From Bremerella sp. P1 (lineage in GTDB: Bacteria; Planctomycetota; Planctomycetia; Pirellulales; Pirellulaceae), in assembly GCF_028748185.1 (NCBI RefSeq), contig NZ_CP118164.1:868001-932000 (forward strand): a DNA stretch of 64,000 nt. Reading direction: 5' to 3'. The notes beneath the pieces were generated by a model. The model searched no databases and had not been told where the DNA came from. It worked only from the letters and a program-made list of their open reading frames with translations. Each line of letters opens with the position of its first letter. The stretch's first letter is position 1. Shown piece by piece: positions 61,680 through 64,000 of this stretch. The position numbers and the translations under genes are program-made.

Positions 61680-61904
61680 CCTTGCGAACTCCGATGATCT
61701 AGGTAATTTGCATGAGCAACCATAAAGGTTACCGGTTCTTTCGCCGGGAATTGTAGCGGTCAAAGGGGGATCGACGATAGACATATTACGGGCCAGCGCG
61801 ATCAGGCCATCGAATTCGTCGAAAGGATTCTGCGATTTCGATCGATGCCAGCTGCTAGCTCGTCCGCTCACAAGTCGCGACTAACCATGGAAGCAGGGTC
61901 AAGG

Positions 61905-62759
61905 ATGAACCACTCGCAATCCCCCTCAGATGCTTCGCTGATTGAACGTCAGGCGAAGGAAATCGAAATCTTGAAGCGCCGTTTGCTCGAAGCGCAAAAA
62001 CTGACCGCGATGGGGGAACTCGTCAGTACGACGACGCACGAATTCAACAACGTGCTGATGGCCGTGATCAACTACGCCCGCATGGGGCTGCGTCATCAGG
62101 ACGAGCAAACCCGCAACAACTGCTTTGAAAAGATCGCAGCCGCCGGGGACCGAGCCGCCAAGATCACGACCGGTGTGCTGGCGATGGCCAAGAACCGTGG
62201 CGACCGCATGGAGCCAACCGACCTGTCGAAAATCGTCGACGACACCATCGTGCTGCTCGAGCGGGAACTTCGCAAATATCGCATCGAATTAGAATTTCAA
62301 AACGAGAACGCTCCCCTGGCAATGGCCAACGGGAACCAGATTCAGCAGGTCCTGTTGAACCTGATGATCAATGCTCGCCAGGCGATGCCTCACGGCGGAC
62401 GGCTGATCCTGAAGCTTTCGTACGACAAAGCGAATGACACGGTCGACCTGTTGGTACGCGATCACGGCACCGGCATTCCGACCGATCAACTGCCGCATAT
62501 CTTTGATGCGTTCTACACGACCAAAACAGGTCCCGATGAAACGGGCAAAGGGGGAACCGGGATCGGTTTGGCCGCTTGCCGCGACATCATCGAAGCCCAC
62601 CAAGGCAAGATCCGCGTGCAAAGCACCGTGGGGATGGGAACCGCCTTCACGATCCGAATTCCGGCCGCTGCCGTGAACCCTACGCCGACCTCAACTGTCT
62701 CCAGCGGCGTACCGATCGCAGGCAGCGAAATGCTTCCCACGTCGCCTGTGAGGCACTAA
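61905..62759 (+). CDS. Soluble sensor histidine kinase
   Basis: The protein has 284 residues from the ATG at 61905 (MNHSQSPSDASLIERQ); two earlier in-frame ATGs (61845, 61887) lack ribosome sites. It has a short coiled coil (about 15-35) and no sensor or membrane domain. The H-box reads 'TTTHEFNNVLMAVINYARM' with H-E-F-N-N, followed by N-box (LLNLMINARQAMPHGG), G1 (DHGTGI), F (FDAFYTTK) and G2 (GTGIGLAAC) boxes. It is of the NtrB/HPK4 type. No response regulator is adjacent. A Pro/Thr/Ser tail ends it. It resembles the flagellar kinase at 16944-17825 in size and layout. Confidence 0.87.
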   Translation: MNHSQSPSDASLIERQAKEIEILKRRLLEAQKLTAMGELVSTTTHEFNNVLMAVINYARMGLRHQDEQTRNNCFEKIAAAGDRAAKITTGVLAMAKNRGDRMEPTDLSKIVDDTIVLLERELRKYRIELEFQNENAPLAMANGNQIQQVLLNLMINARQAMPHGGRLILKLSYDKANDTVDLLVRDHGTGIPTDQLPHIFDAFYTTKTGPDETGKGGTGIGLAACRDIIEAHQGKIRVQSTVGMGTAFTIRIPAAAVNPTPTSTVSSGVPIAGSEMLPTSPVRH

Positions 62760-62799
62760 GCAAGTTTGATGCTTCATGGCAAGTTCATGAAATTCGGAC

Positions 62800-62827
62800 T
62801 TGTCACAAACGAAAACGCGCACATAAT
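62800..62827 (+). promoter_or_regulatory. Sigma70-type promoter ahead of the aromatic leader
   Basis: TTGTCA (62800-62805) and CATAAT (62822-62827) are 16 bp apart, each five of six to consensus. The start would be near 62834, practically at the leader-peptide ATG (62835), so the peptide may be read from a leaderless message. A start further upstream cannot be excluded. Confidence 0.55.
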
Positions 62828-62834
62828 AACCGAT

Positions 62835-62906
62835 ATGAACAGCTGGCAGTTTACTTTTGGATTCTACTTTCCCTACTTTCCGAGTAGGGCCGAGGATTCT
62901 GTGTAA
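62835..62906 (+). CDS. Aromatic-rich leader peptide of the DAHP synthase attenuator
   Basis: This 23-codon ORF runs from ATG 62835 to TAA 62904-62906. Residues 4-15 read WQFTFGFYFPYF: one Trp, five Phe and two Tyr, eight aromatic codons of twelve. It lies 129 bp upstream of a DAHP synthase gene and just before an intrinsic terminator, the layout of the pheA, trp and pheST leader peptides of other bacteria. Ribosomes would stall here when charged aromatic tRNAs are scarce. No ribosome site precedes the ATG; the likely transcription start is one base upstream, so leaderless initiation is possible. The codon run is too biased to be chance, in my judgement. Confidence 0.8.
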   Translation: MNSWQFTFGFYFPYFPSRAEDSV

Positions 62907-62972
62907 ACTGCTAACTGCAAAACGCGAGAACTCCAAAAGCCCTGAATCGGAAAGCGATTCAGGGCTTTTTTT
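62844..62972 (+). promoter_or_regulatory. Transcription attenuator (competing hairpins) upstream of DAHP synthase
   Basis: Four regions can be read. 1:2 hairpin: CCCTACT (62871-62877) with AGTAGGG (62883-62889), lying over the last aromatic codons. 2:3 antiterminator: TAGGGC (62885-62890) with GCCCTG (62939-62944), and GGATTCT (62894-62900) with AGAACTCC (62927-62934, one bulge). 3:4 terminator: 62936-62949 with 62955-62968. A further stem, GCAGTTTAC (62846-62854) with GTAAACTGC (62903-62911), encloses the 1:2 hairpin in untranslated RNA. A ribosome stalled on aromatic codons masks region 1 and frees 2 for 3; one at the stop codon masks region 2 and lets the terminator form. Confidence 0.75.
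62936..62972 (+). terminator. Intrinsic terminator (attenuator stem 3:4) before DAHP synthase
   Basis: AAAGCCCTGAATCG (62936-62949) pairs perfectly with CGATTCAGGGCTTT (62955-62968) around a GAAAG loop, and a T-run reaches 62972. It lies 62 bp before the DAHP synthase ATG on the same strand, so it can control that gene as well as end upstream transcripts. Confidence 0.9.
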
Positions 62973-63034
62973 GTTTCTATTGCCAACTTTAAGACCTGAC
63001 ACCTCACCAAACTAAAGCCTGGGAAGAGAAAGCA

Positions 63035-64000
63035 ATGATCATCGTTATGAAACGGGACGCCACCGGCGACATGATTCAACATGCCGCCGAAAAAGTCGAG
63101 AAATTAGGGCTCAAAGCCCACGTCATCGAAGGGACTGAAAGGACCGTGATCGCCGCAATTGGCGACAAACGCGAAGAAATGCGGGAGTCGTTCGAGACCG
63201 TCACAGGTGTCTCGAAGGTCGTACCGATCCTGGCCCCTTACAAGGTCGCCAGTCGCGAAGTGAAGCCAGAGCCAACGCTCGTCAAAGCCGGTAGCCTGGA
63301 AGTCGGCAACGGCAAGTGCGGCGTCATCGCGGGTCCCTGTAGCGTGGAAAGCGAAGACCAGATTGTCCAGACTGCCAAAGCAGTGAAAGCCGCAGGAGCC
63401 ACGGCGCTGCGTGGGGGAGCGTTCAAGCCACGCACGAGCCCTTATTCCTTCCAGGGTCTGAAAGAAGATGGCCTGAAGATGCTGGCCACAGCACGCGAAG
63501 AAACCGGCCTGGCCGTTGTCACGGAAGTGGTCGCGTCGGAAGACGTTAAGCTGGTTGCCAAGTATGCTGACGTATTGCAAATCGGTGCCCGCAACATGCA
63601 GAACTACCGCCTTTTAGAAGAGGTGGGCCGGGTCGATCGAGCCGTACTGCTCAAGCGTGGACCTTCCGCTACCATCGACGAACTGCTTCTGGCTGCCGAA
63701 TACATTCTCAACGAAGGCAACAGCCGCGTCATGCTGTGCGAACGCGGGATTCGCACCTTCGAGTCGCACACGCGGTTCACGCTTCCTCTGGCTACGGTGA
63801 CTTACCTTCATCAGAAGACGCACCTCCCGGTGGTCATCGATCCTAGCCACGGCACCGGCCATGCTTCCCTGGTCCCCGACATGTGCGTTGCCAGCGTGGC
63901 AATCGGCGCTGACGGCATCATCGTGGAAGTGCATCCCGAGCCTGACGAAGCCATGAGTGACGGCTATCAATCGCTTGATCTGCCTACCTTCGCGGAAACG
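63035..64000 (+). CDS. aroF: 3-deoxy-7-phosphoheptulonate (DAHP) synthase, type I-beta (3' end outside window)
   Basis: The first 322 residues are present and the frame is open at the window edge; the family has about 340, so little is missing. The N-terminus (about 1-70, [20 protein letters not shown]) is the ferredoxin-like regulatory domain of the Thermotoga-type enzyme, used for feedback by aromatic amino acids. The barrel has AGPCSVES (99-106), '[17 protein letters not shown]', '[13 protein letters not shown]' and IDPSHGTGH. It joins phosphoenolpyruvate and erythrose-4-phosphate in the first step of the shikimate pathway. GGGAAGAG lies 8-13 nt before the ATG. The upstream attenuator suggests transcriptional control on top of allostery. 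Confidence 0.93.

Follow-up and report, generated by a model that had tools for sequence, protein, structure and literature searches.

How entry into the shikimate pathway is controlled in a planctomycete is the question raised by the DAHP synthase (3-deoxy-7-phosphoheptulonate synthase) gene, aroF, that starts at the ATG at 63035 (63035–64000, + strand) and runs off the end of the window, the 64,000-nucleotide stretch of Bremerella sp. P1 DNA analysed here. The identity of the enzyme rests on profile matches to NF006421 (475 bits), TIGR01361 (377 bits), PF00793 and PF18152. An earlier note on this DNA had described, ahead of the gene, a 23-codon open reading frame (ORF) with aromatic residues at eight of positions 4–15, and had read it as the leader peptide of an attenuator. 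The ORF is present as claimed (62835–62906, + strand), 128 bp from aroF; it is thus a short upstream frame rich in codons for the end products of the pathway, and encodes MNSWQFTFGFYFPYFPSRAEDSV, with W4, F6, F8, F10, Y11, F12, Y14 and F15 accounting for the eight aromatics. Its start was chosen from promoter spacing and genus conservation; our scripts used the earliest ATG in each leader, so some leaders, L083 included, are longer than is likely. We consider that transcription of the DAHP synthase gene is very probably controlled by ribosome-mediated attenuation of the trp/phe type, and on all of the sequence evidence the element is a conserved leader-peptide attenuator.

The leader is predicted to adopt alternative RNA structures (all on the + strand), and the hairpins, antiterminator and terminator proposed earlier were found where they had been placed to within about one base. 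Between the leader ORF and the structural gene lies the strong intrinsic terminator (3:4; 62935–62976) that had been described ahead of the DAHP synthase gene, comprising 15 pairs (62935–62949 with 62955–62969) followed by a T-run. The antiterminator (2:3; 62885–62944) draws on the part of the leader ORF immediately 3' of the control codons and excludes the terminator; the 13 pairs previously assigned to it are all there (62885–62890 with 62939–62944, 62894–62896 with 62932–62934 and 62897–62900 with 62927–62930), and the fold extends beyond this core through 62901–62904 with 62922–62925 and two 3-pair helices. Folding energies were −24.0 kcal/mol for the antiterminator stretch 62881–62950 (z −3.8 against shuffles) and −61.5 kcal/mol for the whole leader, 62836–62975 (z −7.3 against shuffles). 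The 1:2 hairpin of the earlier note stands as to its place, but has eight pairs (62871–62878 with 62882–62889) and not seven. In the untranslated leader it forms part of a long predicted protector hairpin (62844–62913), in which 62859–62865 pair with 62893–62899 and the beginning of the ORF is base-paired to the stop region (62844–62854 with 62903–62913), an interaction missing from the earlier note. Segment 2 is predicted to be hidden by this 1:2 protector in the ribosome-free fold. Alternative 1:2, 2:3 and 3:4 hairpins, as in the window leader, also make up the trp and pheA attenuators of Escherichia coli, the leaders of which have their own ribosome-binding site.

From these features we infer that the ORF is translated, that ribosomes stall on it and that transcription reads through, together with the start site and the acting amino acids, as follows. 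Transcription would start at or beside the leader AUG, as the position of the promoter suggests. If no ribosome were loaded the protector hairpin would form, followed by the terminator, and transcription would stop. With Phe, Tyr and Trp tRNAs charged, a ribosome at the stop codon would cover segment 2, and the terminator would again form. Scarcity of charged Phe, Tyr or Trp tRNA would stall the ribosome on the aromatic run, so that segments 2 and 3 could pair, terminator formation would be prevented and the shikimate entry enzyme would be made. By analogy, it should not be assumed that all three amino acids act, since the aroR leader of Corynebacterium glutamicum is reported to respond to Phe but not to Tyr limitation (PMC11802643).

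The leader is not confined to the window. In 80 named loci, which are genes for close relatives of the window's DAHP synthase, a leader was called when a small ORF at most 400 bp upstream held at least 6 F, W or Y residues in 12, with at least 7 as a stricter cut-off. Leaders were found by the first cut-off at 42 of the 80 loci, compared with 2/80 reverse complements, 7/1462 control segments (other parts of these loci, on either strand) and 12/1600 shuffles, and by the second at 29/80, compared with 1/80, 0/1462 and, for mononucleotide shuffles, 0/1600. A terminator lies 3' of the leader ORF in 41 of the 42 named loci; that of L057 is weak (−4.5) and L075 has none. Leader length and sequence are highly variable across loci except in aromatic content. 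In the aromatic blocks 68% of codons encode F, W or Y in frame, compared with 14% and 18% in the two alternative frames, an excess that is partly by construction because leaders were selected for these residues, a bias from which the genus comparison described below is free; TTT and TTC together number 210 against 3 for TTA and TTG. As a separate observation, TTT is used over TTC in the aromatic blocks of 58 leaders (154 to 56), whereas the aroF genes use TTC over TTT (319 to 99); the preference in leaders may reflect slower decoding or merely the avoidance of structure.

The other 38 loci fall below the leader threshold, and in 29 of them no terminator reaching −12 kcal/mol lies within 400 bp. 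Among the 38, L071 has an aromatic leader and terminator farther upstream, L074 an aromatic leader with no terminator detected, L012 a weaker leader (5 of 12 aromatic) with a terminator, and the count is 4 of 12 aromatic residues at L067 and 5 of 12 at L070, both with terminators. At L034, L072 and L004 a strong terminator is retained with no clear or recognisable aromatic leader, an arrangement that the earlier note had held to be incompatible with its proposal. These three loci, where decay or constitutive termination is possible, count against attenuation. The phylum was sampled by an even draw of 149 genomes, 118 of which carried the enzyme at the cut-off, and upstream DNA was taken from 69 other genomes (L100–L168; three were unreadable at contig ends). 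Terminator-linked leaders were present at 8/8 loci of the window's own class and at 7/61 outside it, five of the seven in family f56, with L108, L110 and L113, whose upstream DNA was not properly read because of a contig end or a match starting inside the gene, scored as misses. The leader is mostly absent from DAHP synthase loci in the deep planctomycete classes sampled.

It could be argued that the leader acts not on termination but on translation of aroF or the stability of its mRNA, through masking or coupling that depends on the small ORF. In one study planctomycete leader genes are treated as reinitiation sites, and reinitiation is proposed for leader genes near structural genes, in Planctomycetes too (PMC4833913). 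The distance proposed there is ~10 bp, however, compared with the 128 bp of the window, and the near-constant presence of a terminator between leader and gene counts against such a mechanism. The terminator, moreover, lies anywhere from 30 to 171 nt ahead of the aroF ATG across loci, and 81% of 53 aroF genes have a strong Shine-Dalgarno sequence of their own. We regard control at the level of translation or stability as very unlikely.

The window itself suggests another reading, in which the terminator merely ends the transcript of the upstream neighbour and the aromatic ORF has arisen by chance. That neighbour, which lies outside the element, is a sensor histidine kinase gene (61845–62759, + strand; PF02518 above cut-off and PF00512 slightly below) on the same strand as the leader ORF, ending 75 bp upstream of it. 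A promoter-like site lies between the two, however, and the frequency of aromatic frames at these loci is far over chance. Furthermore, the longest upstream open frames, which may include shadow frames, fall into 45 sequence clusters among 57 loci, with 25/57 on the opposite strand; leader and terminator are therefore kept beside unrelated frames. As the neighbour varies while the leader persists, the terminator cannot be put down simply to the end of the kinase transcript, the alternative that the earlier note had named as fatal to its proposal; the leader belongs to aroF rather than to the kinase, and a chance frame ahead of a kinase terminator is extremely improbable.

Within the genus the element is present in 9/9 genomes, including that of the window. 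The earlier note had named conserved aromatic codons in related leaders, and compensatory changes in the antiterminator, as checks on its proposal. All eight aromatic positions remain aromatic in 9/9 genus leaders, with F/Y swaps at residues 10–12; codons vary while the aromatic positions persist, and residue 13, unlike these positions, varies between P, T and S. The retained aromatic residues speak indirectly for translation of the ORF. The antiterminator gave a different picture: 12/17 pairs are invariant and none is changed on both sides, the helix varying so little that covariation is uninformative there. Compensatory change was thus not seen in the genus, but a cognate fit between the two strands was found across distant relatives (46/57, see below). 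In the protector hairpin 88% of cells are paired and one pair is changed on both sides, its covariation score in the genus being no higher than after sliding by one column, while in the terminator 100% of cells are paired, with one two-sided change from A-U to G-C.

Conservation in the genus extends to the SRAEDSV residues of the leader peptide, which are near invariant, as might be expected if the ORF encoded a functional small protein and the terminator gave constitutive partial attenuation. The codons for these residues coincide, however, with the antiterminator strand; class-wide, the tail changes yet in most loci still fits the terminator arm, and the wide variation in length and sequence, aromatic content apart, makes a conserved small protein hard to credit. 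That the ORF is incidental to an RNA-only sensor (a T-box, riboswitch or protein-bound attenuator), as the highly structured leader might suggest, is scarcely conceivable given the retention of aromatic positions despite codon changes, and given that no Rfam family reached its gathering score in 17 loci and the best matches on the window stretch had E values of at least 0.47, far under gathering, which places neither the loci nor the window in a known Rfam leader, T-box or riboswitch family.

Support for attenuation also comes from the pairing of ORF tails with terminator arms (plus 18 nt), computed for 57 of 66 leaders, eight genus relatives and L129 being left out. Tails paired with their own arm at a mean of −22.1 kcal/mol compared with −16.7 kcal/mol for the arms of other loci, a value reached in 0 of 20000 permutations. 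Kinship was controlled for by setting each own arm against the average for the five loci whose enzymes are closest in sequence; the own arm was better in 46/57 loci (mean difference 4.0 kcal/mol, Wilcoxon 2.5e-7) and not better in 11/57, including 4/4 loci of family f56. Against shuffled tails, z fell below −2 in only 30/42 loci. Exact complements of at least 8 bases occurred in 8/58 cognate pairs, compared with 2.5% of non-cognate and 1.1% of shuffled pairs. This cognate fit, together with the excess of leaders over control segments, the conservation of aromatic positions in the genus and the terminators at 41/42 loci, upholds the attenuation reading of the earlier note.

The same pairing was followed in a stall model in which the ribosome makes 13 nt, counted from the A-site codon's first base, unavailable for pairing. 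Over 66 leaders a mean of 8.4 antiterminator pairs could form with the ribosome at aromatic codons, compared with 0.55 at the stop codon. In 58 leaders the last permissive codon lay a median of 2 codons past the last aromatic codon (quartiles 0 and 3), and in 55 of the 58 a ribosome at the stop codon left at most 2.6 antiterminator pairs. The exceptions, L014, L071 and L080, kept 4.4–6.8 pairs, and L080 had more at its stop codon than at its aromatic codons. In the window leader the antiterminator was permitted up to Y14 and blocked at F15. As a stall at F15 no longer frees the antiterminator and W4 is far from it, the model suggests that the Phe and Tyr codons at positions 10–14 should be the most important in this genus. 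In the complete transcript the terminator won at every ribosome position in 6/12 loci listed (the window and 5 of 11 others); the switch must therefore be kinetic, the choice falling before segment 4 is made.

How a ribosome would be loaded on the leader is suggested by the sigma-70-like promoter at 62800–62827 (+ strand; TTGTCA and CATAAT separated by 16 nt). A scan of 62740–63060 returned this as the sole promoter-like match, along with one terminator-like site, where shuffles gave 0.3 of each on average. The promoter ends 7 nt 5' of the leader ATG, so the transcript probably starts at that ATG and the leader mRNA is probably leaderless. The wider set is consistent with such a start. For 55 leaders, after removal from the 66 of three without an in-frame ATG and eight other genus members, a −10-like hexamer lay 6–7 nt 5' of the ATG in 22, where the rate at 407 other ATGs of these stretches predicts 2.4. 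Most leader starts have a weak or absent Shine-Dalgarno sequence, strong anti-Shine-Dalgarno matches being found at 9% of leader ATGs and 19% of other ATGs, compared with the 81% given above for aroF starts. Promoter and anti-Shine-Dalgarno scores were computed with consensus strings.

Leaders of the same design precede other biosynthetic genes of this genome. A Leu-rich leader, MNQNLLLLQLLLITSGC, with a terminator lies ~310 bp upstream of the match to leuA (2-isopropylmalate synthase; L171, G000:C1 near 1115361), and a leader rich in Ile, Val and Thr, MLQPVTDITVVSTISIVGVPTTSA, also with a terminator, lies upstream of cimA (citramalate synthase; L172, G000:C1 near 5610013). The Leu-rich leader precedes leuA in 9/9 genus loci examined. 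Across genomes, with cimA upstream DNA drawn from the own genome and 20 others of 40 searched, terminator-linked leaders were FWY-rich at 40/75 aroF, Leu-rich at 23/30 leuA and Ile/Val-rich at 11/21 cimA genes; off-diagonal entries of the table ranged from 0 to 3, the highest being three Leu-rich leaders at aroF, and 54 control segments yielded no terminator-linked leader of the FWY, Leu or Ile/Val type. At leuA, 14 leaders (22 of 30 loci chosen, less 8 genus relatives) paired better in cognate than in permuted combinations (138 of 20000 permutations did as well). In the own genome the two chorismate-binding (trpE/pabB-like) genes and hisG showed no leader. Amino-acid sensing finds its strongest support in this match between codons and pathway. 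We incline to the view that leaderless-started leader-peptide attenuation is regulon-wide in Planctomycetia, acting on the entry enzymes for aromatic amino acids, leucine and isoleucine through matching codons, and that it works in Gemmataceae too. Aromatic, Leu and Ile/Val leaders would also serve as ready amino-acid sensors for Planctomycetota.

The closest known system is aroR-aroF of C. glutamicum, for which the primary paper is reportedly Neshat 2014. There an aromatic-codon leader peptide likewise precedes the DAHP synthase gene, with ribosome-mediated attenuation reported (PMC4046766, PMC11802643); its core is Phe-Tyr-Phe, however, whereas the window leader has eight aromatics including Trp and belongs to another phylum. 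The uORFC-13-1 motif, known as a prediction from Acholeplasma and environmental sequences only, similarly places an upstream ORF with one or more Phe codons and a terminator before aroF but, unlike the window leader, has a ribosome-binding site and a U-run with at least one Phe (PMC8632094). DAHP synthase genes being attenuated, or thought to be so, in C. glutamicum and Acholeplasma, the kind of control is already known. The E. coli trp and pheA attenuators share end-product codons in the leader peptide (PMC11802643), but serve terminal-branch genes, one amino acid each. In the ilvBNC attenuator of C. glutamicum the reported transcription start lies a single nucleotide away from the leader AUG, a position comparable to the start predicted here from promoter position, and the beginning of the leader ORF lies within the first hairpin, as in the window; its leader codons are for Ile, Val and Leu in contrast to the aromatic ones here (PMC11857589). 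According to a 2010 survey, the leader-peptide systems demonstrated until then were, as far as its authors knew, confined to Proteobacteria and Actinobacteria; the survey itself contributed an example from Firmicutes (PMC2965389). The earlier note knew of no planctomycete example, and we likewise found none in the open-access literature searched, although the supplementary tables of PMC4833913 might include this leader. What is new is the phylum, the dense run that combines all three aromatics, the prediction of a leaderless start and the set formed with the leuA and cimA leaders.

In Gemmataceae, the family of Gemmata and of L065, the enzyme is present in 24/61 genomes at a strict cut-off. 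Aromatic leaders were found at 12 of the 24 DAHP synthase loci, 11 of them with a terminator (L256, L257, L265–L269, L271 and L274–L276), and with L278 and partly L272 and L273, whose upstream DNA was not properly read, scored as misses. Separate transcription and translation has been proposed for Planctomycetes, and for Gemmata above all (PMC6212462, PMC5394234), a proposal that is contested (PMC6554331). As such attenuation needs a ribosome close behind the polymerase, the Gemmataceae leaders bear on the disputed separation in Gemmata; if real, the attenuator would imply coupling where coupling is disputed, and the leaders make that dispute addressable by a reporter experiment.

Aromatic leaders also occur outside the phylum. 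In Calditrichota, to which L080 belongs, 34/40 genomes carry the enzyme, and 7 of 30 loci examined have an aromatic leader, in 7/7 cases with a terminator (L175, L178–L181, L183 and L184), the 30 including five loci (L182, L191, L197, L199 and L202) that could not be properly read upstream and were scored as misses. By eye, the start of the ORF in L080 and L175 looks complementary to the region 3' of the stop codon.
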